DNA of 44,907 bases from Jiulongibacter sp. (GTDB lineage Bacteria; Bacteroidota; Bacteroidia; Cytophagales; Spirosomataceae): positions 1-44,907 of the forward strand of contig JAHEBN010000011.1 in assembly GCA_024645245.1 (NCBI GenBank), written 5' to 3'. This document shows, in pieces, positions 102 through 32,879 of the stretch. Both the position numbers and the translations under genes were made by a program. Under the pieces are notes generated by a model. It was not told the DNA's origin and ran no database searches. It saw nothing but the letters and a program-made list of their open reading frames with translations. Positions within the stretch are counted from its first letter, which is position 1, and every line of letters begins with the position of its first letter.

Positions 102-3100
102 CTATTTTAATGAAAATGCCATCAAAGACTGATTATTACGTGCAAGTATTAAGTTATTATTAATTACGGCTGCGTCCCGGAACTCACCTTTTAAACCCAA
201 ATTCTCTGAGTTGAATTTTCTTTCACCTTTACTTAAAAGTATTAAACCTTTAGATGCAGCATTTCTGCCCAACTGAGGTTTCAGTCCATAAAAATTGCCA
301 GCCAGGAAAATATCTTTTTTGCCATCTTTATTGAAGTCGAAAATAGAAATGGCAAACACGGGGGCCAATTGTGTTTCCAGGGGTAGTTTTTCAAGAGTGA
401 AATTATTTCCCTCATTCCAAAGTATGGAGCTGCCTAGTGTTTCGCAGGATAAATTTTTGACTTTTGAATTATCCAAATTTGGGAAAAGATCTTCGTATTT
501 CATTTTGGCAAATTCACTGTATTTTACCTTTTCTTTTTTCAGTAAAGGAATTTGGGAAGTAAGTTCAACACGACTCGCCCATGGATATAAACCGGGGTTA
601 TCCGGTGTTTTCCAGTTTATGATAAACTCACTTTTGCCGTTTCCATCAAAATCAGCCACTTTCATATTAACAGGTAACTCAGCGGAGGTCTTAAACTTGG
701 TGTTTTCGCCCCAATTTCCCAGAACAAAATCCAGATCGCCGTCATTATCTAAATCACTGGCTTCTACTCGTGTCCACCAACCTGAGGAGTTAGGTACAAG
801 TTCGGGCTCTTTAAGTGCATTTCCCTGATTGTTTTTTAACAAATTAACAGGCATCCAATCACCCACCAGCACCAAATCATCCCAGCCATCTTTGTCATAA
901 TCTGCCCAGGCGGCATCTGTTACCATTCCCAAACTTGAAAAATAGGCCGGACTTACATCCTGCCACTGCCCACCGTTATTTTTTATAAGATAACTTTTAG
1001 GACTTAATCCATAACTGCCCACCACACAGCGTGCTCCAAGAAAAATGTCGGGGTAGCCGTTTTTGTCGAAATCATTTACTTCTAAAGTAGAAAAATTGCC
1101 GACAACAGGAGGTATTCTTGAGGGGTCCACTGCAAAATTGCCCGATCCATCGTTCAGGTATAAACGTACAATGAAATTAATGGGATCGGCTGGTTCGTTT
1201 CCACCTGCACCAATTAGGAGGTCCAGATCACCATCACCCTCGAAATCGAGAAATGAACCACACGTACTTTCAAAGGCTTTATCTTTTTCAAATACCGCTG
1301 AATTACTGGAAATAAATGAACCATTTTTTGTTTGGAGGAATAATTTATCGGCGTCGTTTCTGGCTCCGAGCATTATAAAATCTTCTAATCCGTCTTTATT
1401 AACATCGCCTTTAATAAGTCTTGGACTATCAGTTGAAAGCATGCGATTGAGAAGGATTTCCTGATTGAAATCGTTGAAATCGTTTTCGGCATGTGAGATA
1501 TTTTCGCTGAATAATTTACTGCTTATATCTACGAAAGGGTAGTTCTTTTTTGCTGGATAAGTATATGGAATTTTGGCGTTTATTTCATCCAGAACTAAAA
1601 TCTGATTGGCATTTACATTCGTCACTTCTTCAGAAAGACCTCCTGGCCAAATGATAGTGAGTTTGTCGATGGTTGTATTTTCGCCCAAACCAAAATTCAA
1701 AACAGGCTCAATACTACTTTGAAACCCCCGGTTTGTATAATTTTCCTTTACCCATATCTGATCTTCTTTTTGCAAAATTACCTTAGAACCAATTCCAAAC
1801 GGGTTTTTATCTTTTCCCTTGAAACGTATTTTTAAATAATTTCCGGTTTTGTTTTCAGAACTTTTATTTTGGTAAACAAAGGCCGTTTCGTTCATGTTAT
1901 TTATCACCAAATCCAGATCACCGTCGTCATCCAGATCAGCATAAGCAGAGCCATTGCTGAATGATTTTTGCCCCAAACCCAATAAATCTGACTGATCTTC
2001 AAATTGCAGTTTATTTTTAGAAACGAAAGCATAATTGTGGATGGGAGTCGAAGGCATGGATTTGGTAAATTCCCTCAGATCGAAGTTTTTGTCTTTTTGA
2101 TTTCGGGTTGCCCCGCTTTCTTCCATAAATTCTCGGAAATCGCCGTCTAAAATGTCTTTCCCAATACCGTTTGAAACAAAAATGTCATTTTTTCCATCAT
2201 TCTGAAAATCGAAAATAAGTGAACCCCAACTCCAGTCTGTGGCACTTATTCCAGCTAAATTGGCTATTTCCTGAAAATAGCCATTGCCATCATTCAATTG
2301 CAGGCAGTTTTGCGTAAACTGATAGTGATAATTAGCACGGTATTTTAAATCTTCGATGTGATAGGGCTCAAAAATCATCATGCTTTGAATGCGGGATTGC
2401 TCGGCTGCAAGCATATCTGTGGTGAAAATTTCTGGCGACCCGTCGCCGTTTATGTCGGCAATATCAGCACCCATGCTTGAGGTGCTAATGTAATCGGTGC
2501 GATTGGTTAAATCTTCTGAAAATGTACCATTTCCTTTATTAATGTATAAATAATCCCGTTCCCAAAAGTCATTGGAAATGTATAAATCGGGCAATCCATC
2601 CGAATTAATATCAGCAGTAGAAACACCCAAACCAAAACCAATTGCTGAGCTGTAAATGCCTGCTTGTGTTGTCACGTCCGTGAATATTCCGTTGTCGTTT
2701 CGCATTAATTTATCGCCGCCCAACAGATCAGGAGTATCTCGCATACTTCGGTATAATTCTATTTTTCCCGGTTCTTTGAAGCTATTATTTAATAAGTAGC
2801 AGTCCAGATCACCATCCAGGTCAAAATCAAAAAAAGCGGCGTGAGTTCCGTAGCCTTCGTTGTTGAGGTTAAATTCTTTTGCTTTTTCAGTAAAAGTACC
2901 GTTCCCGTTATTGATAAAAAGCTCGTTTTCTTTTGCGGAGTTATCAAAATCGCCTGAATTACAAACATAAATATCCAGAAAACCATCGCCATTCACATCT
3001 GCCATACTTACCCCGGTACTCCATGCTTTGGTACCTGCCACACCTGCTTTATCGGTAATGTCTTCGAATTTCAGGTTGCCTTTGTTTAGGTAAAGTTTGT

Positions 3101-3362
3101 TCTTTTTCTGATTTGCCGTAAAATAAATGTCTGGTAATCCGTCATTATTAATATCTCCGATTGCCACACCCCCACCATTGAAAAAGTTGCGGTAAGTGAG
3201 CATATTAAATTCCTTGGATTCTTTTACCTGATTGTTAAAATCGATACCGGTTTCCGAAGTATCTAATAACTGAAATAAGGTATTCTTCTCCTCTGTTTTT
3301 TTTGAACACGAAACCAAAAAAGTAAATAGGAATAATAAGAGGAAGAGGCGGACTAAAAACAT
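102..3362 (-). CDS. CRTAC1-like VCBS/FG-GAP lipoprotein with ASPIC/UnbV domain
   Basis: This 1086-residue protein is predicted to be exported and lipid-anchored: the N-terminus is a short hydrophobic stretch ending in a lipobox (FLVSC, Cys19). The rest is packed with calcium-binding FG-GAP/VCBS motifs such as DINNDGLPDIYF and DVNGDGFLDIYV, which form beta-propeller blades. An ASPIC/UnbV-type domain sits near residues 490-580 (FGIGSKV, NRGFQSS, FGLGENTTIDKLTIIWP), followed by a second set of repeats. The order resembles CRTAC1-family proteins. Its exact role is unknown; surface glycan or protein binding is an inference from family and context. It is divergent from the sulfatase gene, with 221 bp between the coding regions. 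A close paralog of equal length lies at 16187-19419 beside susCD. Confidence 0.88.
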   Translation of the reverse strand: MFLVRLFLLLFLFTFLVSCSKKTEEKNTLFQLLDTSETGIDFNNQVKESKEFNMLTYRNFFNGGGVAIGDINNDGLPDIYFTANQKKNKLYLNKGNLKFEDITDKAGVAGTKAWSTGVSMADVNGDGFLDIYVCNSGDFDNSAKENELFINNGNGTFTEKAKEFNLNNEGYGTHAAFFDFDLDGDLDCYLLNNSFKEPGKIELYRSMRDTPDLLGGDKLMRNDNGIFTDVTTQAGIYSSAIGFGLGVSTADINSDGLPDLYISNDFWERDYLYINKGNGTFSEDLTNRTDYISTSSMGADIADINGDGSPEIFTTDMLAAEQSRIQSMMIFEPYHIEDLKYRANYHYQFTQNCLQLNDGNGYFQEIANLAGISATDWSWGSLIFDFQNDGKNDIFVSNGIGKDILDGDFREFMEESGATRNQKDKNFDLREFTKSMPSTPIHNYAFVSKNKLQFEDQSDLLGLGQKSFSNGSAYADLDDDGDLDLVINNMNETAFVYQNKSSENKTGNYLKIRFKGKDKNPFGIGSKVILQKEDQIWVKENYTNRGFQSSIEPVLNFGLGENTTIDKLTIIWPGGLSEEVTNVNANQILVLDEINAKIPYTYPAKKNYPFVDISSKLFSENISHAENDFNDFNQEILLNRMLSTDSPRLIKGDVNKDGLEDFIMLGARNDADKLFLQTKNGSFISSNSAVFEKDKAFESTCGSFLDFEGDGDLDLLIGAGGNEPADPINFIVRLYLNDGSGNFAVDPSRIPPVVGNFSTLEVNDFDKNGYPDIFLGARCVVGSYGLSPKSYLIKNNGGQWQDVSPAYFSSLGMVTDAAWADYDKDGWDDLVLVGDWMPVNLLKNNQGNALKEPELVPNSSGWWTRVEASDLDNDGDLDFVLGNWGENTKFKTSAELPVNMKVADFDGNGKSEFIINWKTPDNPGLYPWASRVELTSQIPLLKKEKVKYSEFAKMKYEDLFPNLDNSKVKNLSCETLGSSILWNEGNNFTLEKLPLETQLAPVFAISIFDFNKDGKKDIFLAGNFYGLKPQLGRNAASKGLILLSKGERKFNSENLGLKGEFRDAAVINNNLILARNNQSLMAFSLK

Positions 3363-6532: not shown

Positions 6533-8023
6533 TTATTTCTTAAATATGCCATCACCGTTGCTCCCCATATAAGCACCCCATAATACCGGTCTTTTGATTT
6601 TAATATGTGTTGAAATCCGGCGGATTTCCATGCCCATAAAGGCGAGTAAATTGGAATTGGGACTGTAATATTTGCAATAAACAATATCCAGATAATTGTC
6701 TTTATCTAAATCTCCGATCCAGGGTGTGCTGAAAATATTTTTAAATTTGGCTTGCTCGTCAATGTTTTGAATCTCCCCGGATTTAAAATCTATGGCGATT
6801 AGTTTATTGCTGATATCCAGTTTGGCTTCGGAAGTAAATCCTTGTTCGCAATCGTAATTATTAATACTTATGATGGCCTCATCAATTCCGTCATTATTTA
6901 AGTCATATACAACGGGCGAAGAAAAACCGGTACAGCCTAAAGAATTCTGATAGGCAATTTCGCCTGTTTTGCCATCAATCATTACCTGTATCGAGCCTTT
7001 ACTTTCGGGCCAGATACCTTTGCTTACAAAAGTGAAGAAATCGGGAGTTTCGTCTCCTGTAAATTGTCCTACGGCAAAAGCATTGCTGCATTCTGTAAAA
7101 TCGATTCTTTTTTGCCAGATAGGCTCAAAATTTTTTCCATCAATTGCAAAAATACTGCTGCCATGCGAAATAGCTACTATATCCAGATTGCCATCGCCAT
7201 TAATATCTGCCAATGATGGTGGAGCTATAAAGCCATGACCTGTTTCTCTTGCAATAATTTTTGCATTAGAAAGTTTCCGATTTTTTAAATTATCGAATTC
7301 GGTGATATACAAGTTGCCGCCAATAGTTTCACCTCCGGTACCAAATATTAACCATTCTTTTCCATCAGCTTGCCTGAAAAACAAAGGAGGCATATAAGAT
7401 TCTTTCCTATCAGGCATTATATCAGAAAAAAGTATATTACCGTTTAGAGGATCGATAATCATCAAAACCCCCGGCAGGCGATCATTCATTGTACCTGGTG
7501 CAGCTTTGGAATTTCCACCGTTTTGCACCAATAATTCGGCAATTCCGTCGCCATTCTGATCGGGTATTTTTACGGTATTCTGGAAATTGTATCTGGCATT
7601 TTTCAGAATGGAATCGGACTCGTATTTGAATTTGTATTCCCAGATTTTTTCACCTGTTTTACCATTTAGACCCATAAATTGATTGGATCGGCCGCCAATA
7701 AAAATATCTTCTGTTCCATCCTTATTTACATCAATAAAAGTGGCGGATCCATAAATCTGATCTATTCCTTTTTGGTTCCAGATTATTTCACCCGTTTTTC
7801 CATCAAATGCTAATATGGAATAATCACTTTGTTGGTATTCGTTTAAACCGCCACCCATCACAATGTCCAAAATTCCATCACCATTTAATTCCGCAGTCCT
7901 CGGTGAAGATTGAGAGCCGATTTGAGGAAGCGATTGTTTCCAGGCCAACTCAGTCTTTTTGGATTTGCAGGAAAAAAGTTGAGTTAAAACCAGCAAGATT
8001 ATCGCAAAACGGCATGGAATCAT
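6533..8023 (-). CDS. FG-GAP / PQQ-like beta-propeller lipoprotein, paralog of 5073-6527
   Basis: This 496-residue lipoprotein has a lipobox at LFSC (Cys19). Its propeller repeats match the convergent neighbour almost motif for motif: LPQIGSQSSPRTAELNGDG versus LPTIGSFSSPRLTDLNKDG, FGTGGETIGGNLY versus FGTGGETIDGNLF, and WGAYMGSNGDGIF versus WGSYMGSFNDGVF. The two stop codons are separated by 5 bp, so the genes lie tail-to-tail. The main difference is anchoring: this copy is lipidated, the other looks soluble. No enzyme motif is visible. It is divergent from the regulator at 8437, with a 413-bp region between them. Confidence 0.88.
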   Translation of the reverse strand: MIPCRFAIILLVLTQLFSCKSKKTELAWKQSLPQIGSQSSPRTAELNGDGILDIVMGGGLNEYQQSDYSILAFDGKTGEIIWNQKGIDQIYGSATFIDVNKDGTEDIFIGGRSNQFMGLNGKTGEKIWEYKFKYESDSILKNARYNFQNTVKIPDQNGDGIAELLVQNGGNSKAAPGTMNDRLPGVLMIIDPLNGNILFSDIMPDRKESYMPPLFFRQADGKEWLIFGTGGETIGGNLYITEFDNLKNRKLSNAKIIARETGHGFIAPPSLADINGDGNLDIVAISHGSSIFAIDGKNFEPIWQKRIDFTECSNAFAVGQFTGDETPDFFTFVSKGIWPESKGSIQVMIDGKTGEIAYQNSLGCTGFSSPVVYDLNNDGIDEAIISINNYDCEQGFTSEAKLDISNKLIAIDFKSGEIQNIDEQAKFKNIFSTPWIGDLDKDNYLDIVYCKYYSPNSNLLAFMGMEIRRISTHIKIKRPVLWGAYMGSNGDGIFKK

Positions 8024-8436
8024 TTTATCGTTTTTAATTTTTTATGATATTTTAATTTTCTTCCCAAAATACTTCAAACATGGCATAAAAACTTTATTTA
8101 GGTAAAAATCTCCGCTTTTTTTCTTTTAACGGATAACCATTTCTAGGATTTACTTGTTAATAAAATTTGAATAGGTGATTAATTTTATCTTAATTAGAAC
8201 AATTTTATCCTTATTAATTTCTTTGGTTTTTGAAAATTAAATTGATAAGTATCTAATTATCAGTTGGTAATGATTTGAATAATAGATTTAACAAGAAGCT
8301 TATAAAGTTATTTATTAAATATATTTAATAATGATACGATAAAAAGTAAATTTTCTTCACTATCTAAAAGTGTCAAGCCAAATTTGTATTTTGAAGAAAT
8401 CATCAATAAACAATAACAAGCCGTACTTTCGAAGAA
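8024..8436. other. Intergenic region between divergent genes, no gene seen
   Basis: This is a very AT-rich stretch between the FG-GAP lipoprotein gene and the regulator gene. No convincing open frame or RNA gene is visible. It must hold two promoters, but I find no exact TAnnTTTG. The closest are TACTTTCG near 8425 and TATTTTG near 8387. Two near-identical blocks beginning AATTTTATC start at 8181 and 8201, 20 bp apart. An AAAGTGTCA at 8367-8375 recurs upstream of susC at 11247. Confidence 0.5.
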
Positions 8437-11010
8437 ATGAGGTTTAAATTTTTTTTACAAATTTCAGGTCTTTTAATGAAATCGTTTGTCAGAATTGTAA
8501 TTATTTTAATTTGCATTTTGACATGGTCAGATTCCTATTGTCAGCAATATGGGTTGGGTTTTTATGGAAACGAAGTGGTAAGTGACCATCGTACTTCACT
8601 TATTTTGGGTAATAGTGAAAAAATTTGTCCGAAAGAATCCTATACGCTTTCTTTTCAACTAAAGTTCCGACCAAATGTAGCCGGGGATTTTGGTTATGTT
8701 TTTCGAATGATTGATAGCCAAAAAAATAACTTCGATTTAGTTTATAACGGGCAATTTCAATTCATATATAAAGATCAAAAGTTGGAACTTGATTTTGCTA
8801 TAGATTCTGCTAAGTTGAGAAATCAATGGAATGATTTTAAAATACATTTCGATGAGGATATTTGGGTAGAGATTAATGGCAAAGCAGTTAAAAAATCAAA
8901 GTCTGGTTTGCCAAATAAATTTACTTGTTTTAAAATATATTTTGGAGCCTGTGATTTTAAAAGTTTAGAAACTAAAGATGTGTTACCGGTAAATATTAAG
9001 GACATACGCATTAGCGTGGGTAACACTCTTTTGCATGCGTGGGATTTAAGGGTTTTAAAAGGTAATCTAGTAAAAGATCAAATTACTGGCAATACTGATT
9101 TTGCGGTAAATCCCAATTGGATTTATAATGACTATTATTCCTGGCGATTGATAAATGAATTTAATAGTAAAGGTGCGGTAGGTGTTACAAGCGACGAGAT
9201 GGCACAGAATCTTATTTTTACAGGAAGTCCAAAATCTTTTAATTATGAGGTGAAATCCGGTGTTTTTAATGAAAGACCTACCGAAAATATCAATCTTGTA
9301 TTAGGTGATATGTCATTACATTTAAAATCTAGTGAAAATTCAGGCATAATGCGTTTGAATGAAAAACAGGTTTTTATTCTCGATAAAACAAATCCCGTTG
9401 TTCCCAATACTGATAAGGTCACGGAATATTGGCAACATAATCTTTACGTATATCCTATGGATACTGCCGTTGTTGGTATTGCGGGCTATGGTATGTACAA
9501 ATACAAAAACAGTTTTCAGAAATATAGTTTTATTACTCAAAAATGGTCGGATATAAAGTTTACTGGTGATATACCAGACCCCAGATATCTCGCAGGATTT
9601 GGATCGGTTGCTAATCGCACCAAGTCTTACTTAATAGGTGGTTATGGCTCATCTACAGGTGATCAATTACTCAAGCCGGGTAATTATTACGATATGTTTG
9701 AAATCGATTGGATTGAAAATAAAATAGTACGAAAGTATGAATTACCATTATCTGATTCGCCATATGTATTTGCCAAAGATTTGATAATAAACCCCAAAAA
9801 TGAAACCTTTTATGGATTTACTTTTAATCAAATCAATTTTAATTCAAGTTTGCAGCTTATTCAAGGTTCATTAAATAAGCCTGAATTCGAGAAATTTGCA
9901 TTGCCTATACCTTTCAATTTTCAAGACACGCGTACAGAAGTCCGTTTATTTTATAATGATATTCAGAAGGAGTTACTTTGTGTTATTTTGGAATTTAATC
10001 AGGATAATAACAGCACAGATGTTAAAATATATTCTTTGCTGACTCCACCCAATAAGTTGCTTGCCGAAAATACTAATGGTGAAAAAATAACAGATAAAAA
10101 GTGGTCTATTCTTATACTTATACCCGTGTTAATCCTTCTTTTCTGGTATTTAAGAAAAAGGAAATTACAGGTAAAACCGCTAACAACCTCATTAAATAAA
10201 TTAGAAATTGAGGCTCCTGTTGTTGAGCGTATAACTTTTTTAGACTCTGAAAAAGGAAACTTCGAAATGTGCGATCAAAAAACGGATAAAATCCGATTTT
10301 TTGGTGGTTTTGAAGTAATAAATAAGGAGGGCGAAGATATTACGGGTCACTTCACACCTCTATTGAAAGAGATGTTTCTTTACCTTATTTTAAATTCGAT
10401 TCGATGGGGAAAAGGCCTCAATTCAAGTAAACTGGATGAGATGTTCTGGAGTGACAAAGATAAAGCCAGTGCCCGTAATAACAGATCGGTGAATATAATT
10501 AAGCTCAAGAATTTATTAAGTAATGTTAATGGTATCGAAATTTCGAAAAGTAGTGGCAACTGGAAAATAGAATTTGATTCTAAGCTTATTTTTATTGATT
10601 ATGCGGTTTACCGGCAAATTGTAAGTAATAAAAAGGTTATAAACAATCAGGATATAAAATGCTTGACGGAGATTGTTCAAAGGGGAGTTTTTCTCCCCAA
10701 TCAGGAATTTGAATGGCTGGATGATTTTAAAAGTGAAATTTCGAATAATATAATCGATGCCTATCTACATTACGCCGAGCATTTAGACATTCACAGCAAT
10801 GCAGAAGAAATTATTGAAATAGCGAATAATATCCTTCTTTTCGATCCGGTGGATGAAACCGCAATGATCTTAAAATGTAAAGCACTTCATACTTTAGGTA
10901 AACATTCTATTGCAAAATCAACTTTTGAAAAATTTGTTAAGGAGTATGAAATACTATATGCTGAAAAATTTGATAAAAGTTTTCAGGAAGTCGTCGACAA
11001 TAACCACTAA
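8437..11010 (+). CDS. Membrane-spanning one-component regulator: LamG-like/kelch-like sensor, winged helix and BTAD
   Basis: The 857-residue product appears to span the inner membrane once. Residues 1 to about 36 form a signal peptide or anchor; the ATG at 8476 is an alternative start. Residues about 40-215 look like a LamG-type beta-sandwich. Residues about 290-545 look kelch-like (VVGIAGYGMYKY, SYLIGGYGSS). A single hydrophobic segment lies near 556-577 (SILILIPVLILLFWYL), followed by RKRK. The cytoplasmic part has an OmpR/PhoB-like winged helix (about 618-712; IRFFGGFEVI, FWSDKDKASARNNRSVNIIKLK) and a BTAD-like helical region (about 716-855) as in SARP regulators. It is probably a DNA-binding sensor of extracytoplasmic glycan or cell state, controlling the susCD operon directly downstream. 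Domain calls are by eye. Confidence 0.78.
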   Translation: MRFKFFLQISGLLMKSFVRIVIILICILTWSDSYCQQYGLGFYGNEVVSDHRTSLILGNSEKICPKESYTLSFQLKFRPNVAGDFGYVFRMIDSQKNNFDLVYNGQFQFIYKDQKLELDFAIDSAKLRNQWNDFKIHFDEDIWVEINGKAVKKSKSGLPNKFTCFKIYFGACDFKSLETKDVLPVNIKDIRISVGNTLLHAWDLRVLKGNLVKDQITGNTDFAVNPNWIYNDYYSWRLINEFNSKGAVGVTSDEMAQNLIFTGSPKSFNYEVKSGVFNERPTENINLVLGDMSLHLKSSENSGIMRLNEKQVFILDKTNPVVPNTDKVTEYWQHNLYVYPMDTAVVGIAGYGMYKYKNSFQKYSFITQKWSDIKFTGDIPDPRYLAGFGSVANRTKSYLIGGYGSSTGDQLLKPGNYYDMFEIDWIENKIVRKYELPLSDSPYVFAKDLIINPKNETFYGFTFNQINFNSSLQLIQGSLNKPEFEKFALPIPFNFQDTRTEVRLFYNDIQKELLCVILEFNQDNNSTDVKIYSLLTPPNKLLAENTNGEKITDKKWSILILIPVLILLFWYLRKRKLQVKPLTTSLNKLEIEAPVVERITFLDSEKGNFEMCDQKTDKIRFFGGFEVINKEGEDITGHFTPLLKEMFLYLILNSIRWGKGLNSSKLDEMFWSDKDKASARNNRSVNIIKLKNLLSNVNGIEISKSSGNWKIEFDSKLIFIDYAVYRQIVSNKKVINNQDIKCLTEIVQRGVFLPNQEFEWLDDFKSEISNNIIDAYLHYAEHLDIHSNAEEIIEIANNILLFDPVDETAMILKCKALHTLGKHSIAKSTFEKFVKEYEILYAEKFDKSFQEVVDNNH

Positions 11011-11017
11011 AAATAGA

Positions 11018-11040
11018 AAAGTGAGCTTTAAGCTCACTTT
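11018..11040 (+). terminator. Hairpin terminator after the regulator gene
   Basis: An 11-bp perfect inverted repeat with a one-base loop (AAAGTGAGCTT / AAGCTCACTTT) starts 7 bases after the stop codon of the regulator gene. There is no separate long T run, but the 3' arm itself ends in TTT. It probably ends the regulator transcript before the susC promoter region. Confidence 0.6.
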
Positions 11041-11249
11041 CTAAATCAAACTACCACAATTTAACCAATCTTTGTTTCAATAGAGTCGAATTTAAGGCAT
11101 GCTTAATAAGCAGATGCGTCTAAAATTCGTTGATCAAATGTAAAATAGGCTATATAATTAAGCATTAACTAATAATTAATAGAAAGGACTTTTCAGATCA
11201 TTTCTATAATATTTCTAGGGTTAAAATTTTGCCATTCGACTACATAAAG

Positions 11250-11262
11250 TGTCATTTTGACA
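11250..11262. promoter_or_regulatory. TGTCA-TTT-TGACA inverted repeat upstream of susC
   Basis: Perfect 5-bp arms flank a 3-base centre, 157 bp before the susC start. The sequence AAAGTGTCA that includes the left arm also occurs at 8367-8375, upstream of the regulator gene, so this may be a site for that regulator. This is inference; arms this short can occur by chance. Confidence 0.3.
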
Positions 11263-11349
11263 TGTAAGAGCATTATTTTAAAAATTTAGTCCGGGTTAAT
11301 CTTTTATTAATTATCCATTATAGATAAACACCTAAACTTACAGCAGTTT

Positions 11350-11383
11350 AGTAAACTACAGCTTTGCGAAAGTGTAGATTACT
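11350..11383 (+). promoter_or_regulatory. Long imperfect inverted repeat in the susC leader
   Basis: The arms AGTAAACTACAGCTTT and AAAGTGTAGATTACT pair over 14 positions with one mismatch and one bulged G, around a GCG loop. The element ends 35 bp before the susC ATG. There is no T tract, so it is not a simple terminator. It could be an mRNA structure or an operator. Confidence 0.5.
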
Positions 11384-11418
11384 GGCGGGATTATTAATCA
11401 ATTAAACCTTACTGTTGT

Positions 11419-14400
11419 ATGAAAAAAACACTACTCATGCAATTACTTACAGCCTTGCTATTCAGCTCCGGCGTAGTATTTGCACAAAACAAAACCATTC
11501 AGGGAAAAGTGACCGATGCCTCGGGAGAAGCCCTGTATGGTGTAAATGTCACTGTTAAAGGTACTACTAATGGTACCATTACGAATGAAAGCGGTAGCTA
11601 TACTCTAAGTGCCGCTGCCAGTCAAACAATTACTTTTAGTTATATTGGTTATGCCACACAAAATATTGTGGTAGGTAATCAGACAACTATCAACGTTACC
11701 TTAACCGAAGATGCCAATACACTTGGAGAGGTGGTGGTTACGGCTTTTGGAATTGAGAAAGATAAAAAAAGTCTTGCTTATTCCATTACCCAGGTCGATG
11801 GTGATAAATTTACTGAATCACGGGCAACAAATCTTGGTACTGCACTCACCGGTAAAATTGCCGGTGTGAATGTTTCTTCGCCAACCACAGGTGCCGCCGG
11901 TTCCAGCCGAGTGGTAATACGCGGTGGTTCTTCTTTAGGTGGAAATGACCAACCTCTTTATGTAATTAATGGCGTTCCTATGGACAACAGCAATCAAGGA
12001 AGTGCAGGTCTGTGGGGTGGAAATGACAATGGAGATGGCCTTACTGCTATTAACCCGGATGACATTGATAATATTTCAGTGTTAAAGGGGAATACCGCTT
12101 CGGCTTTATATGGTGCTCGTGCGGCCAATGGCGTGGTTTTGATAACAACCAAATCAGGTAAAACTACTAAGGGTCTTGGTGTTCAGTTTACTTCAAACTA
12201 TACTATGGATAAGGCGATAAATCGTTTTGACCTTCAGGATACTTACGGTACTGGTACTTTAGGGCAAAAGCCGACAACTCAGGAAGAGGCACTGGCCGTG
12301 GGGAATTCCTCATGGGGTGCAAAACTGGATGGCAGCAGTGTAGTGCAATTTGATGGTGTTTCAAGACCATACAGCTCAACTGGTGAAAATATCAATAGCT
12401 TCTACAAGACAGGCAATACCTGGTCGAATACATTGGCTTTAAGCGGTGGAAATAATGTGGGGAATTTTCGTTTTTCGGCATCCAATCTCATGAATGAGGA
12501 TATTATGCCTAATGCAAGTTTTGACCGTACCAGTCTAAATGCAAATGTCAATGGCAAATTCGGAAAATTAGACCTTGCTTTTAACGGACAATATACTAAA
12601 GAAGGTGCTAAAAACAGACCGAGAATGTCTGATACCCCAGGAAATGGAAATTATACGATTATAACCAAAGCACCTAATATTTCATTTGCAGATTTGATGG
12701 GAGATCCCAATAAATTAGGAGCAAATGATGCCGGCACAGAATTACAACATCAAGGCAATGTATATGCTCAGAATCCTTGGTGGGCTGCGTATCAGTTTCT
12801 TCGTTTAGATGATAAAAACAGGGTTTTTGGTAATGTGGCTCTAACTTATCATCTTACTGATTGGCTTTATGTTAAAGGAAGAATGGGTACTGATTTTAAT
12901 AATGGCGTATTTACCACTTCAGAACCTTATGGAACGGCTTATAAAACAACTGGTGATTTTAATAAAACATTCAGGAATATCCGTGAAGATAATGCCGACC
13001 TTTTTGTAGGTGCGAATAAAACTTTTGGAAAAATTGCCGTAGATGCTTTAGTAGGTGGTAACCGAATGAGGAGAACCAACGAAGATTCAAGAATCGGAGG
13101 TAACGGTCTTAAAATTCCTTTCTTTTCCAGTGTAAATAATGTAGCGAGTCAGACTTATTCATACGGATTTTCGGAATATGGCATCAACTCTATATTTGGA
13201 TCGGCCAATTTTGGATATGATAATTTCTTGTTCTTAAATGTCACCGGTCGTCAGGACCAATTCTCAACTTTAAGTCCGGAAAGTAATAGTGTGTTTTATC
13301 CTTCTGTAGGAATGAGTTTTGTGTTTACTGATGTTATTAATACTTTACCGTCTTGGTTATCAACAGGTAAGGTGCGTGCATCTTGGGCACAGGTTGGTGG
13401 CGGTGCTCCCAATCCTTATTCGAATAATTTAACTTATAGTCTGCAAGGATACGATCATTTAGGTGCTACACTTGCAACAATAAGCAATGGATCAATTCCA
13501 AACTCCGCATTGAAACCATACCTTTCCACTGAATTTGAGGTAGGTTTAGATATTCGTTTCTTACAAAACAGATTAGGTGTGGATATGGCTTATTATAATC
13601 GAAATACCGTAGATGATATATTAAATACATCTATTTCAGGTACTTCTGGATATGGGTCAACACAAATTAATGTTGGAGAGCTGAGCAATAAAGGAATCGA
13701 ATTATTAATTAATGCCACGCCTTTAAGAAGTAAGGATTTTAATTGGAATTTGTCTTTCAATTTTGCCAGGAATATATCAAAGGCCATCAGCTTGGGAACA
13801 AACGCACAGGGTGAACCAATAGAATTCCTCAATCTGGAAGAAGCGAGATCTCGTCAGGAAAGAATTCGTCATTATATTGGTGAGCCACTAGGAATTATAG
13901 CAGGATATAAGCAAAAGGAAATCAATGGTCAGCCAGTGTATGACGCCGATGGTTATCCTGTTAGGGGTGATTTCCAGATATTAGCTCAAGGTCGTCATCC
14001 GATAAGTGCCGGTCTTTCTAATTCATTTAGCTATAAAAATCTGTCTCTTAGCTTCCTGATTGATATGCGTAGCGGTGGTAGTATCATGTCAGGTACCAAC
14101 CTGGGTCTATATGGTGTTGGTCTTCATAAAGGAACGTTGGAAGGCCGTGATGGCGGGCTTACGGTATCTGGTGTAAACGCCAACGGCGAGGCTCAAACCT
14201 GGAATATACCAGTTGAAAAGGTTCAAACCTATTATGGTCAATATGCCGCCATTACCCAAAATTTCGTATATGATGCCTCTTTTGGCAAGCTTAGAGAAAT
14301 TTCTTTGGGATATAATATTCCATCAAGCCTGCTAAAGAAAACAAAACTGCAAAGTGTAAGACTATCTGCAGTAGGTCGCAATGTAGCTATACTTTGGTCA

Positions 14401-14520
14401 AACGTGCCAAATATTGATCCTGAAAGTGGTTACAGTGCCATTGGCGGAGCACAAGGTCTGGAATATTTCAATGCTCCTTCGACAAGAAATTTAGGGTTTA
14501 ATCTTAACGCTTCTTTTTAA
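11419..14520 (+). CDS. SusC/RagA-family TonB-dependent outer-membrane transporter
   Basis: This 1033-residue protein would import an oligosaccharide across the outer membrane using TonB energy. Residues 1-22 are a Sec signal peptide ending FAQ. A carboxypeptidase-like regulatory domain follows (about 26-103; IQGKVTDASGEALYGVNV). Next is a TonB-box-like region (LGEVVVTAFG). The plug domain carries the family hallmark SVLKGNTASALYGARAANG, and the remainder is the beta barrel ending in a C-terminal aromatic (NLNASF). The SusD partner starts 20 bp downstream. The substrate is not known. The nearby sulfatase suggests a sulfated glycan, but that is inference. Confidence 0.95.
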   Translation: MKKTLLMQLLTALLFSSGVVFAQNKTIQGKVTDASGEALYGVNVTVKGTTNGTITNESGSYTLSAAASQTITFSYIGYATQNIVVGNQTTINVTLTEDANTLGEVVVTAFGIEKDKKSLAYSITQVDGDKFTESRATNLGTALTGKIAGVNVSSPTTGAAGSSRVVIRGGSSLGGNDQPLYVINGVPMDNSNQGSAGLWGGNDNGDGLTAINPDDIDNISVLKGNTASALYGARAANGVVLITTKSGKTTKGLGVQFTSNYTMDKAINRFDLQDTYGTGTLGQKPTTQEEALAVGNSSWGAKLDGSSVVQFDGVSRPYSSTGENINSFYKTGNTWSNTLALSGGNNVGNFRFSASNLMNEDIMPNASFDRTSLNANVNGKFGKLDLAFNGQYTKEGAKNRPRMSDTPGNGNYTIITKAPNISFADLMGDPNKLGANDAGTELQHQGNVYAQNPWWAAYQFLRLDDKNRVFGNVALTYHLTDWLYVKGRMGTDFNNGVFTTSEPYGTAYKTTGDFNKTFRNIREDNADLFVGANKTFGKIAVDALVGGNRMRRTNEDSRIGGNGLKIPFFSSVNNVASQTYSYGFSEYGINSIFGSANFGYDNFLFLNVTGRQDQFSTLSPESNSVFYPSVGMSFVFTDVINTLPSWLSTGKVRASWAQVGGGAPNPYSNNLTYSLQGYDHLGATLATISNGSIPNSALKPYLSTEFEVGLDIRFLQNRLGVDMAYYNRNTVDDILNTSISGTSGYGSTQINVGELSNKGIELLINATPLRSKDFNWNLSFNFARNISKAISLGTNAQGEPIEFLNLEEARSRQERIRHYIGEPLGIIAGYKQKEINGQPVYDADGYPVRGDFQILAQGRHPISAGLSNSFSYKNLSLSFLIDMRSGGSIMSGTNLGLYGVGLHKGTLEGRDGGLTVSGVNANGEAQTWNIPVEKVQTYYGQYAAITQNFVYDASFGKLREISLGYNIPSSLLKKTKLQSVRLSAVGRNVAILWSNVPNIDPESGYSAIGGAQGLEYFNAPSTRNLGFNLNASF

Positions 14521-14540: not shown

Positions 14541-16094
14541 ATGAAATTTAATAATAAAATAATTGCAATTACCACCCTGATAAGTTTAATACTCGGGGCA
14601 TGTAATAAAGATAAACTGGTAGAGCTTAATATTAATAAAAATGCTTCTACAGAAATAGATTTGGGCTATTTGCTTGCTTATGGGCAATTGAGAGTAGCCG
14701 GTTCCAGGTACGAATCCTGGAGAACCAACTTGATTTATTCTTCCACTATGATACAGCATAATGCAACTTTGCAAGGATACTGGAGCGGGGATAAATATTA
14801 CTACAGCTCGCAGTATAGCGGAGCGTATTGGGAGCGTCATTATCCGGATGCTATAAAGCATTTAACACATGTAGTTGATAAAACCGCTGGTGACGGTGAA
14901 ATGGTAAATTACCATGCGGCAGCACAAATTATGCGTGCATTTGATTTACATAGAATGACTGATATTTACGGGGATATACCTTATTCTGAAGCCGGAAGAG
15001 GAATTGACGGACAGGAGTTTTGGTTTCCGAAATACGATAGCCAGCAAGATGTTTATAAAAGCCTTGTGGCCGATATAAAAGCCGCTCGCGATGAATTTTC
15101 AGCAGGTGCAAAAGCTTTAGGAAGCCAGGATGTTTTATTCTCTGGTGATCTTACCAAATGGAAAAAGTTCGCAAATGCATTGTTAATGAGAATTTCAATG
15201 CGAATGAGTAAAGTAGACGAAGCTACTGCAAAGGCCATTTTTGCCGAGGCAGCAAGTAATGGGGCTATTGACTCAAATGATGCAAATGCCTTTATAAAGC
15301 AAGCTTTAGGTAATGGTGGAGATGTCAATTATAATGGTACATCACTAGCCATGTCGAATGCAGCCGGTGGCGGCGGAGATAATAACGCCAAAATATCCAA
15401 GACTTTCATGGATTGGATGAATGCCAACAAAGATCCAAGAAAAATGATTATTGTAGGCGGTATTGGTAATCCTTATTCTGATAAATCTACCTGGAATACA
15501 GATCCCGATGCTCAGATAGGTCTCCCGAATGGTTACACGTCTACTACCATAAAGGATATTGTACCTGATTTTACCACAGTGCATGCTTATAGCTTTATTA
15601 ACCCATCTATAATTGAATTAGACGATCCAACTCCTTTCATTTCATATGCAGAGGTGGAGTTTATGATGGCAGAAGCTGTTTTGAAAGGTTGGATAAGCGG
15701 TGATGCCGAAGCACACTTTAATAAAGGTGTTGAAGCTGCTATTACTTCCTGGACATGGTTCGGAGTAAGTGTGCCAGAGGCAGACGCCATCAGCACTTAT
15801 ATCAGTGGATTAGGTTTTGGCACAGCTTCAAGTACCGATAAGTTAAGACTTATTGGTGAACAATATTGGGCTACAACCTATTTAAATCATATTGAGTCAT
15901 GGTGTAACTGGAGAAGAACCGGATATCCTGTTCTTACTCCCGTGAATGATCCTAATAACATAACCGGAGGTACAATCCCTCGTCGTCTACGCTATTACGA
16001 AGATGAAATTGGTTCAAATCCAAAAAGTTATCAGGAAGCAATTGCCCGTCAGGGCGAAGACCTTCTGACTACTCGGGTATGGTGGGATAAGTAA
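14541..16094 (+). CDS. SusD/RagB-family glycan-binding lipoprotein (SusD-like 2 type)
   Basis: This 517-residue protein starts with a signal peptide and lipobox (LILGAC, Cys21), so it is expected at the outer-membrane surface capping the SusC channel. The region LHRMTDIYGDIPYSEAGRG is typical of the SusD-like group with helical TPR repeats, as is the late YAEVEFMMAEAVLKGW helix. The WCNWRRTGYPVL segment and the C-terminal PRRLRYYEDE region also fit. It directly follows susC, and a strong terminator lies just after it at 16122-16159. Confidence 0.93.
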   Translation: MKFNNKIIAITTLISLILGACNKDKLVELNINKNASTEIDLGYLLAYGQLRVAGSRYESWRTNLIYSSTMIQHNATLQGYWSGDKYYYSSQYSGAYWERHYPDAIKHLTHVVDKTAGDGEMVNYHAAAQIMRAFDLHRMTDIYGDIPYSEAGRGIDGQEFWFPKYDSQQDVYKSLVADIKAARDEFSAGAKALGSQDVLFSGDLTKWKKFANALLMRISMRMSKVDEATAKAIFAEAASNGAIDSNDANAFIKQALGNGGDVNYNGTSLAMSNAAGGGGDNNAKISKTFMDWMNANKDPRKMIIVGGIGNPYSDKSTWNTDPDAQIGLPNGYTSTTIKDIVPDFTTVHAYSFINPSIIELDDPTPFISYAEVEFMMAEAVLKGWISGDAEAHFNKGVEAAITSWTWFGVSVPEADAISTYISGLGFGTASSTDKLRLIGEQYWATTYLNHIESWCNWRRTGYPVLTPVNDPNNITGGTIPRRLRYYEDEIGSNPKSYQEAIARQGEDLLTTRVWWDK

Positions 16095-16159: not shown

Positions 16160-16186
16160 GTTAATTTGGATTCAAATTTAATTTCG

Positions 16187-16738
16187 ATGAGATTTTCCCT
16201 GTTCTTAATTCTGATTTTTACACTTTTGTCTTGTAATAAGCAGGATACTTTATTTCAAAAGCTGGATTCTCAGAAATCCGGAATCGATTTTTCCAATACC
16301 ATCACAGAGACTGATGACTTGAATGTATTGATTTACGAATACTTCTACAATGGAGGAGGAGTGGCTGCGGCCGATTTTGATAACGACGGACTTATAGATT
16401 TATATTTTACAGCCAATCAAAGTACAGATAAGGTTTACAAAAATCTGGGAGAATTAAAGTTTGAAGATAAAACTCCGGGCTCCGGAATTACCTGGAATCA
16501 GGAATGGAAAACAGGTGTAACGGTTGTAGACATAAATGCCGACGGACTCATGGATATTTATGTTTCGGTTTCCGGTAATGAGGAAAGACCCGAACTACGG
16601 AAAAATAAATTATACATCAACAAAGGGAATTTTCAATTTGAAGATCAGGCTGCACAATATGGCTTAGACATCGATTCCTATACTACCCAATCTGCTTTTT
16701 TTGATTACGACAAAGATGGCGATCTGGATGCTATATAA
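16187..16738 (+). pseudogene. N-terminal fragment of frameshifted CRTAC1-like VCBS lipoprotein
   Basis: This is the 5' part of a gene homologous to 102-3362. From the ATG at 16187 (preferred over an in-frame TTG at 16166) it encodes a signal peptide with lipobox (TLLSC, Cys16) and several FG-GAP/VCBS repeats (DFDNDGLIDLYFTANQ, DINADGLMDIYVSVSG). It stops at TAA 16736-16738, right after the repeat DYDKDGDLDAI. The paralog continues there with DCYLLNN. Adding one T before ATATAATG restores a continuous frame (DAYIMNHN) into the next reading frame. The stop overlaps the next ATG by one base (TAATG), so reinitiation is conceivable. It may be a genuine mutation or a sequencing error. Confidence 0.8.
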
Positions 16739-19419
16739 TGAATCACAATGTAAGAGATTACAAGCGTTTTGATGTGCAGGCTATTCATTTCATGCGTGAT
16801 CAATACGCCGGAGATAAATTAATGCGAAATGATAATGGCGTATTTAAAGATGTAAGTGCCGAAGCTGGTATAAAAGGTACACCCATCGGCTTTGGCCTGG
16901 GTATCAATGTATCTGATCTCAACGGAGATAATTGGCCGGATATTTACATTTCAAACGACTATCTGGAAGGCGATTACCTCTATATAAATCAAAAGGACGG
17001 GACTTTTTCCGACGATATAAAGGATCATGTGGATCACACCAGTTATTTCAGTATGGGCAATGATGTGGCCGATATTAATAACGATGCATTACCTGATATT
17101 TTTACGAGTGACATGCTTCCGGAAGATAATAAACGCCAAAAATTACTCTTTGGACCCGATAATTATGAAGGCTATTTGTCCATGCTTCGCAATGAATTTC
17201 ATCCGGAAATCATGCGAAATATGCTGCATGTTAATGAAGGAAACGGCAGGTATGCCGAGATTGGTCAGCTTGCGGGAATTTCTAATACGGATTGGAGCTG
17301 GTCGCCTCTTTTGGCCGATTACGATAATGATGGCTTTAAGGATTTGTTTATTACAAATGGCTATTTACGCGATTATACCAATAATGATTTTATTAAGTTT
17401 TATTCAGAACAACGGTCCGAAGGAAAGGACAATGTACTCGAAATAATCAATAAAATGCCTTCCAGTAAAGTTTCGAGTTATATTTTTAGGAATAAGGGTG
17501 ATCTTACTTTCGAGAATATGCAGGCGAAATGGGGGATATCTGAGAAAAACATTTCGAATGGAGCAGTTTATGCCGATCTGGACAATGACGGCGATCTGGA
17601 AATTATTACAAACAACCTGAACGAACCTGCTTCCATTTTTAAAAATACCCTGAATGAAAAAGAAGAGCCAAAAAATTACATTTCTGTAAAATTGGAAGGA
17701 AAACCTGCCGAAATTCTGAATACTAAAATAAAAGTGAGAACAGCTTCTGGAGTTCAGTTTCGTGAATTTTCTCCCAATCACGGTTTCCAAAGCTCGTATT
17801 CAGGTCCTCAATATTTCGGCTTGGGTTCGCAATCAAGCGTGGAATCCATAGAAGTAGAGTATCCAAATGGACAATCGCAAACAATTAAAAATCCGGCAAT
17901 AAATCAGATTTTGGAGATAAAATATAAGCCATCGGAAATTCCGGTAAGGGGGCTGGATAATACAATTTTTACGGAGAGTTCGATTACTGAATTGATGCAC
18001 GGACAAATGCCACTGAATGATTTTAGCCGGCAGATTTTATTGCCTTGGATGTATTCTTATCAGGGCCCTTGCCTGGCTAAAGCTGACGTAAATAAAGATG
18101 GTATCGAAGACTTTTATATGGGTGGTGGAAAAGGATTTCCCGGAAAATTGATGTTGGGTAAACCGGCTGGGGGATATGTATCTACCAACGAGGCTGTACT
18201 TAAACAATGGGAACTTTGTACTGATACCGACGCTGTATTTTTTGATTCTGATAGCGATGGTGATCTCGATTTGTACGTAACAGGTGGTGGATATGAATAT
18301 TTACCCAACGACCTGCTTTTGCAAAACAGACTATATTTGAATGATGGAAAAGGAAATTTCACCAAAACAGATGATGCCTTTCCTGCAGACTTATTTGCCG
18401 ATTCCTGTGTTGAATTGATCGATTTTGATAACGATGGCGATCAGGATGTGTTTGTAGGTGGGTCGGTTTTGCCTACCGGATATCCGATGTTTAATCCTTC
18501 TCGCTTTTACTGTAACGATAAAGGCCATTTTACCAGCGTTAGTCCCGAGCTTTTTTCAGGTTTGGGAATCATTAAGGACGCCGTGAAAATCGATTATAAC
18601 GAAGACGGGCTATTTGATTTGATCACGGCAGGCGAGTGGACCGGAATAACAGTTTTTAAAAATACGGGCAAAAATTTCGATATAGACCACGAGGCAATTA
18701 GTTCTGGTTCCGGCCTTTGGCAAAATTTAAGCATAGGAGATTTTGACAGGGATGGTGACGCTGATTTACTGGCCGGTAATTTAGGAGAAAACAGTCAGCT
18801 ATGTGCGAGTTCCACAGAGCCGCTGAGTCTTTATGTAGCAGATTATGATCAGAATGGGCGACTGGATCCGATTTTATCTTGTTTCATTCAAAATAAAAAT
18901 CACCCTTTTTACAGCAGGGATGAAATTCTGGATCAATTATCTCCACTTCGAAAAGTTTATAATTCGTATGAGTCGTATTCCGACCAAACGATAGATGATG
19001 TACTGAAAAATTTCAAAGATATAAAACCGGAAATATTAAAAGTAAGTGATTTACGGACCAAATTATTTATTAACGAGTCGGGCAAATTTGTGGAAAAGCC
19101 ACTTCCAGTAATTATTCAGAGTTCGCCGGTTTATGCTATGTTACCATTTGATGTAAATGGAGATGGTTTTCTGGATTTTATTGCTGCAGGTAATAACTGG
19201 CACACCCGGGTGAGATTGGGTAATATTTCGGCAAATCACGGACAGGTTTACCTGAATGATGGCAAAGGAAATTTCTCTTATCTGCCTCAGTACAAGAGTG
19301 GTATTAGTGTGATCGGCGAAACCCGTTCAATCCTAAAAGTGAATAATGATTTGCTTTTCGGTAGAAATGGTGATTATGTAAAATCATATCAATTAACAAA
19401 ATCTAAAGACCATTTATAG
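16738..19419 (+). CDS. C-terminal part of frameshifted CRTAC1-like VCBS/ASPIC-UnbV protein
   Basis: This 893-residue frame continues the gene begun at 16187. Together they would give about 1084 residues, matching the 1086-residue paralog at 102-3362. It carries VCBS blades (DLDNDGDLEIITNN, DFDNDGDQDVFVGG), the shared segment GDKLMRNDNG near its start, and an ASPIC/UnbV-like domain (NHGFQSSYSGPQYFGLG). On its own it lacks a signal peptide and would stay in the cytoplasm, so it is probably non-functional unless the frameshift is an artefact or suppressed. Its position after SusC/SusD suggests an accessory surface lipoprotein role; this is inference. Confidence 0.82.
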   Translation: MNHNVRDYKRFDVQAIHFMRDQYAGDKLMRNDNGVFKDVSAEAGIKGTPIGFGLGINVSDLNGDNWPDIYISNDYLEGDYLYINQKDGTFSDDIKDHVDHTSYFSMGNDVADINNDALPDIFTSDMLPEDNKRQKLLFGPDNYEGYLSMLRNEFHPEIMRNMLHVNEGNGRYAEIGQLAGISNTDWSWSPLLADYDNDGFKDLFITNGYLRDYTNNDFIKFYSEQRSEGKDNVLEIINKMPSSKVSSYIFRNKGDLTFENMQAKWGISEKNISNGAVYADLDNDGDLEIITNNLNEPASIFKNTLNEKEEPKNYISVKLEGKPAEILNTKIKVRTASGVQFREFSPNHGFQSSYSGPQYFGLGSQSSVESIEVEYPNGQSQTIKNPAINQILEIKYKPSEIPVRGLDNTIFTESSITELMHGQMPLNDFSRQILLPWMYSYQGPCLAKADVNKDGIEDFYMGGGKGFPGKLMLGKPAGGYVSTNEAVLKQWELCTDTDAVFFDSDSDGDLDLYVTGGGYEYLPNDLLLQNRLYLNDGKGNFTKTDDAFPADLFADSCVELIDFDNDGDQDVFVGGSVLPTGYPMFNPSRFYCNDKGHFTSVSPELFSGLGIIKDAVKIDYNEDGLFDLITAGEWTGITVFKNTGKNFDIDHEAISSGSGLWQNLSIGDFDRDGDADLLAGNLGENSQLCASSTEPLSLYVADYDQNGRLDPILSCFIQNKNHPFYSRDEILDQLSPLRKVYNSYESYSDQTIDDVLKNFKDIKPEILKVSDLRTKLFINESGKFVEKPLPVIIQSSPVYAMLPFDVNGDGFLDFIAAGNNWHTRVRLGNISANHGQVYLNDGKGNFSYLPQYKSGISVIGETRSILKVNNDLLFGRNGDYVKSYQLTKSKDHL

Positions 19420-29179: not shown

Positions 29180-29545
29180 GTCTTTTTTTGAAATTTGTAA
29201 GATAAAATAATGCCATAAAAATAATGAAAAATTTATCCAATTATTGGTAATATTTAATGAAATATTTTTTCAAAAGAAAGAAAATGAAGAATTTTGGAAG
29301 TGAATTGTGGTGGAGTTAAGTTTAAAAAATATCAAATAGCGATAAATTTGTATTATTATAATTTTTTAAGATAAACCGATATTTGTAAAGTTGAAACTGA
29401 AATAATTTTAAGTGTATACCTGAGCAATACTTTTGTGGTTTGGGTATACCTGGTAAGTTTAGGTTTTATCATAGGTTAAATTTAGAAATTAATTAAGTTT
29501 GGGATGGATTACTGATCTATCCCAACTTACCATTACCATAATTTT
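29180..29545. promoter_or_regulatory. Divergent control region araC / mannan operon
   Basis: This 366-bp AT-rich stretch has no gene. A TACTTTTG at 29428-29435 fits the -7 consensus TAnnTTTG for the rightward operon, but no good -33 element lies at the right distance. It is flanked by two copies of GTATACCTG (29414-29422 and 29444-29452), 30 bp apart; the second lies within the palindrome GGTATACC. A further palindrome, CCAAT-T-ATTGG (29237-29247), lies 58 bp upstream of the araC start. Confidence 0.45.
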
Positions 29546-31560: not shown

Positions 31561-31569
31561 AACATTTTT

Positions 31570-32739: not shown

Positions 32740-32761
32740 ATAGATTTTGAATCTCAGAAAC

Positions 32762-32805
32762 ATCGGATGGCCTACTTATTAATGTGGGCATCCGATCTTT
32801 TTTTT
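32762..32805 (+). terminator. Intrinsic terminator after the phosphorylase gene
   Basis: The arms ATCGGATGGCC and GGGCATCCGAT pair over 8 bp, with further G-C pairing across one mismatch, and are followed by C and a run of T residues. It lies 22 bp after the phosphorylase stop. It implies that the transporter part of the operon has its own promoter (TAATTTTG at 32847) or depends on read-through. Confidence 0.85.
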
Positions 32806-32846
32806 GGTAAATAGTATTAAAAATTCGCTTCCTAATTACAAAAGTT

Positions 32847-32854: not shown

Positions 32855-32879
32855 ACATTCATTTTAACCCTAACACCTA

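Follow-up and report, generated by a model that had tools for sequence, protein, structure and literature searches.

A predicted transmembrane SARP-type regulator beside a susCD pair in Jiulongibacter and a candidate direct-repeat operator at SusC promoters

The regulator gene and its layout

The window analysed here is a stretch of 44,907 nucleotides from Jiulongibacter sp. (Bacteroidota; Spirosomataceae), namely positions 1 to 44,907 of contig JAHEBN010000011.1 (assembly GCA_024645245.1). Its subject is a gene at 8437–11010 on the forward strand, an open frame without internal stop for a protein of 857 amino acids, which we designate the regulator and interpret as membrane-tethered and SARP-type (Streptomyces antibiotic regulatory protein); the reverse strand of this interval contains many stops, and the gene is single copy in its own genome. 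A SusC-like TonB-dependent receptor gene (11419–14520) begins 408 bp downstream and is followed by the gene of a SusD-like_2 lipoprotein (14541–16094); both were assigned by Pfam, lie on the same strand as the regulator and are its presumed targets. An earlier reading of the letters alone (the sequence-only reading) had rightly placed the regulator beside susCD, and had proposed that such a one-component transmembrane protein represents a different route to susCD control. Regulation of polysaccharide utilization loci (PULs) has been described via SusR-like proteins, hybrid two-component systems and pairs of extracytoplasmic function (ECF) sigma and anti-sigma factors (PMC3878776, excerpt).

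The N-terminus of the regulator (residues 1–35; 8437–8541) is hydrophobic, with Kyte-Doolittle peaks at 9–27 and 17–35, in agreement, by hydropathy only, with the signal peptide proposed earlier. It is followed on the forward strand by a predicted extracytoplasmic beta-sandwich (residues 36–230; 8542–9126), a probable kelch-type beta-propeller (residues 231–540; 9127–10056) suggested by profile and fold matches, a transmembrane (TM) helix at about residues 551–572 (10087–10152), an OmpR-type winged helix (residues 615–715; 10279–10581) assigned by model and fold match, and a BTAD (TPR-like) region (residues 716–850; 10582–10986) assigned by the model and by profile on the C-terminal part. The single TM helix of the sequence-only reading is borne out by hydropathy, with peaks at 551–569 and 554–572, and by its retention above threshold in the equivalent place in 28 of 29 family members (the exception is L042; L numbers denote loci and G numbers genomes).

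The sensor had been described earlier as LamG/kelch-like. The kelch part of that description is probably right: PF24681 matches the regulator below threshold (E 6.7e-5, 22.7 bits against a cut-off of 50), kelch profiles match 29/29 aligned members at E ≤ 0.1 (best 2.8e-11), and the cut-off is passed by two more distant relatives (L106, 52.0 bits; L154, 62.7). Structure prediction of the full chain, suggested by the same reading, yielded a poor AlphaFold2 model (4 rows; mean pLDDT 50.7) in which a propeller is nonetheless recognizable; residues 231–538 of this low-confidence model align to kelch propellers (for LZTR1, 248 residues at VIA Z 12.5 and a root-mean-square deviation (rmsd) of 3.9), with WD40 Gbeta propellers scoring almost equally well (Z 12.2). 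The sandwich is a prediction from the model and Foldseek, whose matches for this low-confidence model include the Vibrio cholerae neuraminidase and a galectin carbohydrate-recognition domain, and its ConA/LamG-like character is suggested by those matches. The name LamG is less secure: Laminin_G_3 was reached by one of 29 aligned members at E ≤ 0.1 (0.0053) and no LamG Pfam match was found in the regulator; a profile search of the PDB with the sandwich alignment gave no match up to E 10. A ConA-like sandwich at residues 36–230 is plausible.

A SARP-type module behind the membrane helix

Full-chain searches of Pfam, NCBIfam and PDB sequences gave the regulator no DNA-binding assignment, nor did Pfam or NCBIfam detect a kinase, receiver, AraC, sigma or FecR domain in it. 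The winged helix and BTAD proposed by the sequence-only reading are therefore not found at Pfam cut-offs; they are upheld by fold, profile-profile and profile evidence. BTAD appears at E ≤ 0.1 in 3 of 29 full-length aligned members, and among C-terminal parts searched alone (n = 21) BTAD was detected in seven (best E 0.003) and Trans_reg_C in five (best 0.027), all below the cut-offs, the regulator's own part scoring 13.0 bits for BTAD against a cut-off of 22.1. The Pfam BTAD cut-off is no safe guide here, because of ten BTAD-matching frames inspected from a search of the order (20 matches in 19/98 genomes) nine look TPR-like by eye and just one, L064, SARP-like. A PDB profile search with the C-terminal alignment gave no match up to E 10.

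A template-free model of residues 612–857 (pLDDT 68.4, pTM 0.61) opens with two strands, three helices and a hairpin and continues with seven helices. AfsR and EmbR chains take the five top places among its Foldseek matches (E 8.8e-4 to 7.9e-3), and VIA aligns 228–231 of 246 residues with them at Z 12.2–12.7 and an rmsd of 4.2–4.5; after these come OmpR-type winged helices only, at Z ≤ 10.0 and with about 90 residues covered. An hhalign comparison of a 19-part C-terminal profile with the Pfam-BTAD protein L064 gave 94% and E 1.4e-7 over 223 columns, and a narrower profile gave 66.7% over 76 columns. Furthermore, the family's C-terminal profile matches a soluble AfsR-like SARP in G787 at 3.9e-15, a protein in which BTAD is found at 3.7e-25. 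These comparisons support a SARP fold of the modelled C-terminal module. Weighing against this assignment are the unmet Pfam cut-offs for winged helix and BTAD, a model built from 4 sequences of which three are alike, and the warning issued by VIA that Z values under about 13 may be unspecific for helical repeats. Since the cut-offs are not reached and a membrane protein carries the module at its C-terminal end, we speak of a SARP-type module and not of a SARP family member.

Could this part be a winged-helix/TPR scaffold that is past DNA binding, in a protein that assists SusCD structurally or as a sensor? The sub-threshold Trans_reg_C match would suit such a scaffold, yet conservation along the protein peaks in the winged helix (mean pairwise identity 57%, vs 55% for BTAD, 43–44% for the sensor and 17% for the linker at 541–612), and five residues (N681, N682, R683, V685 and N686) are invariant in 29 rows and lie on the third model helix (676–694), the presumed recognition helix. 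With a SARP-like operator candidate also present (below), we regard a scaffold as very improbable.

Relatives and their linkage to SusC genes

Homologue matches were found in 34 of 150 same-family genomes; three are weak, kelch-only matches, leaving 31 genomes with the gene, with one match each save G010, where it is cut at a contig end, and G058, where it is split over two contigs. Full-length relatives occur in three named Emticicia/Cytophagaceae records at 41–42% identity. C-terminal profile searches identified matches in 15/194 genomes of the order, 4/295 of the class and, at E ≤ 1e-4, 28/395 of the phylum, the weaker phylum-level matches including soluble SARPs; the viral contigs scanned contained no relative of the regulator.

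Linkage was assessed at 30 own-family loci, 32 having been examined and two left out (L059, on the same contig as L002, and L022, at a contig end). A SusC gene lies within 5.9 kb in 29 of the 30 and is directly adjacent in 18, the only exception being L048, with no SusC within 8 kb. The 17–87 SusC matches per genome (12 genomes) give a chance expectation of 6–21% per genome at 6 kb; as the loci are related, no P-value is attached. Linkage holds across three arrangements (co-directional, divergent, and convergent with a PUL operon between) and across two SusD types, SusD-like_2 and SusD_RagB. When 12 genomes were searched with the window's SusC, the best-matching copy genome-wide lay next to the regulator in 7, the window's own included.

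Beyond the own family, linkage is found in genus g66 of a second family, f18 (7/7, with gaps of 0.2–7.8 kb), and in G943, where SusC is adjacent; it is absent from genus g119 of f18 (0/4), from L116 as judged by eye and from homologues outside the class (0/8). The proposed susCD linkage of homologues accordingly holds for the former groups and not for the latter. On a 47-row tree the SusC-linked rows are clustered, with 3 changes vs 10 on shuffled labels and none of 500 shuffles as low, although the tree has long deep branches whose order is uncertain. SusC linkage is a property of one branch and not of the whole family.

The sensor also varies among these relatives. Within g66, kelch was found in L102 and L106 and no Pfam match in L110 or L111, and LamG-type sensors occur in L107 and L109 of g119. 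Laminin_G_3 is found in relatives with the same TM helix and C-terminal SARP-type module (L107, 5e-19; L109, 1e-20; L116, 2e-44), which does not imply that the regulator's sandwich is homologous to it. The G527 protein carries two Laminin_G_3 domains and a weak BTAD, next to genes that are sulfatase-like and alginate lyase-like by eye; L116 adjoins sulfatase-like and polysaccharide lyase-like genes, with no SusC noticed by eye. Kelch versions recur in same-phylum genomes outside the class (L147 and L149), and L150 has no Pfam match.

Some neighbouring genes complicate the pairing of regulator and SusC. ECF sigma, FecR and several other neighbour labels rest on inspection by eye or on BLAST matches to proteins so labelled and not on Pfam; on that basis ECF-sigma-like genes occur in several loci, a point against the activator reading put forward below. 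In L046, L055 and L056, ECF-sigma- and FecR-like genes stand at the nearest SusC, so that the pairing there is ambiguous. L046 also carries a repeat triple at 7740–7765, between the regulator and the cluster of ECF-sigma, FecR and SusC genes (by eye), a hint of stacked regulation. The neighbouring glycoside hydrolase (GH) genes of families GH29, GH95, GH92 and GH43 and the sulfatase genes point to no single glycan, and we therefore name no substrate.

TTAA direct repeats at SusC promoters

The direct repeats recognized by SARPs have a spacing of 11 or 22 bp, with 8 bp between the last one and the -10 element (PMC10936776, excerpt), and the classical SARP unit is a heptamer plus 4 (PMC5930380, excerpt). 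A MAFFT alignment of the intergenic regions between regulator and SusC showed no obvious operator across clades, and repeats emerged only by period analysis, in which three-copy 7-mer repeats were scored at periods of 8–25 (18 periods) in the 200 bp before SusC. The control comprised 34 unlinked SusC promoters from seven genomes only (G000, G018, G020, G048, G051, G083 and G109). At period 11 the three arrangements averaged scores of 15.5, 17.0 and 16.1, vs 13.2 for the unlinked promoters; with ties included, period 11 ranked first in 6/13 co-directional, 5/5 divergent and 6/7 convergent promoters, that is, in 17/25, vs 6/34 of the control. The period-11 repeats have a common TTAA core.

A strict pattern, requiring at least three TTAA among four 11-bp steps or three of three, within 250 bp, was fixed before the validation promoters (L110, L111 and L154 among them) were examined. 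The discovery promoters leave out L046, L048 and three loci whose SusC start lies outside the stretch (L052, L055 and L056, included in the validation as L208–L210). The pattern is present in 22/25 discovery promoters, where shuffles predict 0.12 (still 22/25 at 250 bp), in 8/11 validation promoters (0.07 expected) and in 1/34 unlinked controls at 200 bp (0.16 expected) or 2/34 at 250 bp (L172 and L180). When promoters are collapsed at 70% identity, 14/20 groups carry it vs 1/32 in the control, and 4/7 groups in the validation alone. Three TTAA in a row at period 11 occur in 20/36 promoters; other periods from 6 to 30 yield 0–1, except for 3 at period 22. We propose TTAA direct repeats every 11 bp as a candidate SARP-type operator.

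In 35 regulator stretches (about 650 kb, mostly 19 kb each), with each triple site counted on both strands because TTAA is self-complementary, exact triples lie in no predicted gene; they are found upstream of SusC, the regulator, GH95, GH92 and GH29 genes, and some others. L048, the own-family locus without SusC, has no repeat site either.

Several observations count against the candidate operator. The pattern is missed in three discovery promoters (the window's own, L036 and L053) and in three validation promoters (L110 and L111, adjacent and divergent, and L154, adjacent); the five passing f18 promoters meet only the three-of-four rule, the third repeat being the missing one; arrays exist in controls L172 and L180 (at -203 to -239); and both SusC and a repeat site are missing at all eight homologues from outside the class. 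Moreover, exact triples number 5–17 per genome in 10 genomes (0–21 for the reversed pattern), and for this reason triples alone define no regulon. The L180 array, also detected by the unit profile described below, comprises four TTAA copies 203–239 bp before an unlinked SusC (G018:C27:1060398–1060434) and may be a further target or chance.

The repeats might instead be bound by another regulator, or represent phased AT tracts or UP-like elements, the regulator gene then being a mere passenger of the locus. Consistent with this, the DNA is TTAA-rich and arrays occur elsewhere, unlinked SusC promoters show a slight period-11 excess (mean score 13.2 vs about 12.4), and ECF-sigma-like genes occur in some loci among the neighbouring genes scanned. 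Against this, among unlinked SusC promoters the strict pattern is found only in the one or two control hits above, and an exact triple lies within 500 bp of 0/18 unlinked SusC copies in G138 and 0/16 in G124 (the copies listed with a start, of 87 and 82 matches). Together with the absence, reported below, of the composite site from sampled genomes without the regulator, these counts leave the passenger scenario with little credit in our judgement.

A promoter element at a fixed distance

The Bacteroidota -7 consensus is TANNTTTG. Sites were aligned on their last repeat, chosen by eye, and 21 were counted after exclusion of L049 and L053, where sequence was missing, and of ten near-copies (L002, L003, L038, L040, L044, L045, L057, L204, L210 and L211); the count keeps other near-copies (L042/L043/L047, L050/L051/L054, L206/L207 and L004/L039), hence a group count is also given. 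A TAnnTTTG-like element, differing from TANNTTTG by no more than one mismatch, lies exactly 11 nt after the last repeat in 11/21 sites, or 8/15 groups; at any other offset from 0 to 30 it is found in at most 3/21 sites.

The composite pattern of repeats plus element has 14 matches in 11 of the 150 genomes and in 3 genera, vs one match for the reversed pattern. Eleven matches are at linked SusC promoters, and three are alike sequences in G050, G086 and G124. All 11 genomes with a match are among the 31 carriers of the regulator, and none is among the 119 sampled genomes without it. A caution on these counts is that the letters of the composite pattern were fitted to known sites and that the last repeats were chosen by eye. 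The second composite sites, in G124 (G124:C15:497629–497674; L225), G086 (L217) and G050 (L223), lie upstream of an Oar-like TonB-dependent receptor (by eye) in L217 and L225, the two inspected, and may mark a target in trans.

Candidate sites within the window

The sequence-only reading had singled out the region 11041–11418 for DNA binding, and a SARP-like, though degenerate, array does lie there. With a unit profile built from 52 units of 17 other loci, the window excluded, a candidate operator was located on the forward strand at 11282–11325, made of four 11-bp units, AAATTTAGTCC GGGTTAATCTT TTATTAATTAT CCATTATAGAT, two with exact TTAA cores and two with one mismatch. As four units it scores 15.4, and 0/300 shuffles are as high (highest 14.5); for three units the figure is 1/300. 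A -7-like element, TAAACTTA, follows on the same strand at 11333–11340, 11 nt after the last repeat, with 2 mismatches to TANNTTTG. Having only 2 exact TTAA of 4, this promoter fails the strict pattern, which tells against its reading as an operator.

A second array (8154–8197, given without strand), with 3 of 4 exact TTAA at 11-bp steps, lies between the regulator and a divergent gene for an FG-GAP protein (6533–8023, reverse strand; Pfam), which is a possible target; its four-unit score is 18.9 (0/300 shuffles as high; 6/300 for three units), and it may serve autoregulation or the FG-GAP promoter. No array was detected by the unit profile before the window's second SusC, nor in L110, L111 or L154.

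That, over four units, this array outscores the site at the SusC promoter, and that repeat sites also lie upstream of the regulator in several loci, would fit a module acting as repressor or mere autoregulator, with susCD mainly controlled otherwise; the sign of regulation is in any case our inference. Against this, convergent loci carry sites at SusC promoters that lie kilobases away from the regulator gene, and the 11-nt distance from the last repeat to the -7-like element in 11/21 sites is near the position of SARP activators (PMC10936776, excerpt). A repressor or autoregulator appears unlikely to us, if less so than a passenger gene.

Proposed mechanism and comparison with known systems

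Taking fold, linkage and candidate operator together, we consider it likely that the regulator is a one-component, inner-membrane-tethered SARP-type activator of susCD; the different route advanced by the sequence-only reading thus gains support. We infer that the periplasmic sandwich and propeller bind an oligosaccharide that the adjacent SusCD pair takes up, and that the signal would pass the single TM helix to the cytoplasmic winged helix and BTAD module, either by oligomerization or by proteolytic release through the poorly conserved 541–612 linker. Three to four modules would then bind side by side to TTAA repeats that recur once per helical turn (11 bp) and stop just short of the -7 element on its upstream side, and RNA polymerase would be recruited to the susCD promoter. 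In relatives, the promoters of GH95, GH92 and GH29 genes and of the regulator itself are probable further targets.

The regulator resembles the SARP activators AfsR (8hvr/8k60) and EmbR (2ff4/2fez) in its winged helix and BTAD fold over 228–231 residues and in having direct repeats with 11- or 22-bp spacing near the -10/-7 element, the window's own site being degenerate. Unlike in these soluble proteins, in which the module is N-terminal, it is C-terminal here (615–850) and preceded by a periplasmic sensor and a TM helix; the repeats are AT-rich, and the presumed targets are sugar-uptake genes and not antibiotic clusters. In the main text of a SARP review, the words membrane and transmembrane are absent (PMC10972967).

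SusR of Bacteroides is likewise a one-component inner-membrane protein with a periplasmic sensor, a C-terminal DNA-binding domain, a SusCD target and direct-repeat motifs, although the SusR motifs have a long spacer (PMC3878776, excerpt). The simplest account is that the regulator works like SusR but with unrelated domains. We take DUF6377 to be the SusR family; kinship was rejected, as the regulator has no DUF6377 Pfam match and reaches one member at a BLASTP E of 0.5. DUF6377 is absent from the regulator's own genome at E ≤ 1e-5, and two DUF6377 proteins have, by eye, TPR-like N-termini and a LuxR-like helix-turn-helix.

Hybrid two-component systems and ECF sigma/anti-sigma pairs share periplasmic sensing and SusCD control (PMC3878776, excerpt). 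Membership in the former was rejected for want of a histidine kinase, receiver or AraC Pfam match in the regulator, and in the latter as Pfam found no sigma or FecR domain in the regulator and no STN domain on SusC. ToxR/CadC proteins carry an OmpR-type winged helix in an N-terminal DNA-binding domain, followed by a TM helix and a C-terminal periplasmic domain, and are not known to contain a BTAD; the order is reversed in the regulator, with the sensor N-terminal and the winged helix C-terminal, which argues against membership. Common to both is a regulator made of one transmembrane protein that includes a DNA-binding effector domain (PMC5430869, excerpt).

More broadly, we lean towards the view that membrane-tethered SARPs constitute a further class of SusCD regulators, in which monomers gathered by periplasmic glycan binding would occupy three to four TTAA repeats in 11-bp phase and replace the -33 contact at Bacteroidota-type promoters, a sigma adaptation. 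The architecture, which is found without SusC outside the class, would be older than its tie to susCD and would have been recruited to PULs in a Bacteroidia branch. If true, a one-component membrane SARP would be an additional and unusual route of susCD control with a precise candidate operator, which makes target genes predictable in genomes. The SARP fold, mainly known from actinomycete antibiotic regulators, would thereby extend into transmembrane signalling, raising the question of how side-by-side assembly on DNA proceeds when each monomer is fixed in the membrane. No account of such a regulator was found in the open-licence literature at the title and abstract level, and an earlier description elsewhere is possible.

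Additional observations

Outside the class, tandem pairs of SARP-type module genes, one full-length and one shorter, occur in L150 (7349–11073) and L153 (8325–12819). The soluble AfsR-like SARP of G787 (BTAD, AAA, TPR) lies near SusC-, FecR- and ECF-sigma-like genes by BLAST labels (L156, 2850–13495). In L148 (7902–10459), the G714 homologue is split into two open reading frames (ORFs) of 485 and 364 amino acids, by a frameshift or assembly error.

In the window, a hairpin just 3' of the regulator gene (11017–11041, given without strand) is terminator-like on the reverse strand only, according to a scan. At 28295–42137 lie an AraC regulator, GH26, GH130, a major facilitator superfamily transporter and a second SusCD pair, with SusD_RagB, whose SusC promoter has no repeat array. 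Finally, an ASPIC/FG-GAP protein is encoded at 16166–19419 by two abutting ORFs (190 and 893 amino acids), its homologue at 102–3362 being a single frame of 1086 amino acids; the split probably reflects a frameshift or assembly error.

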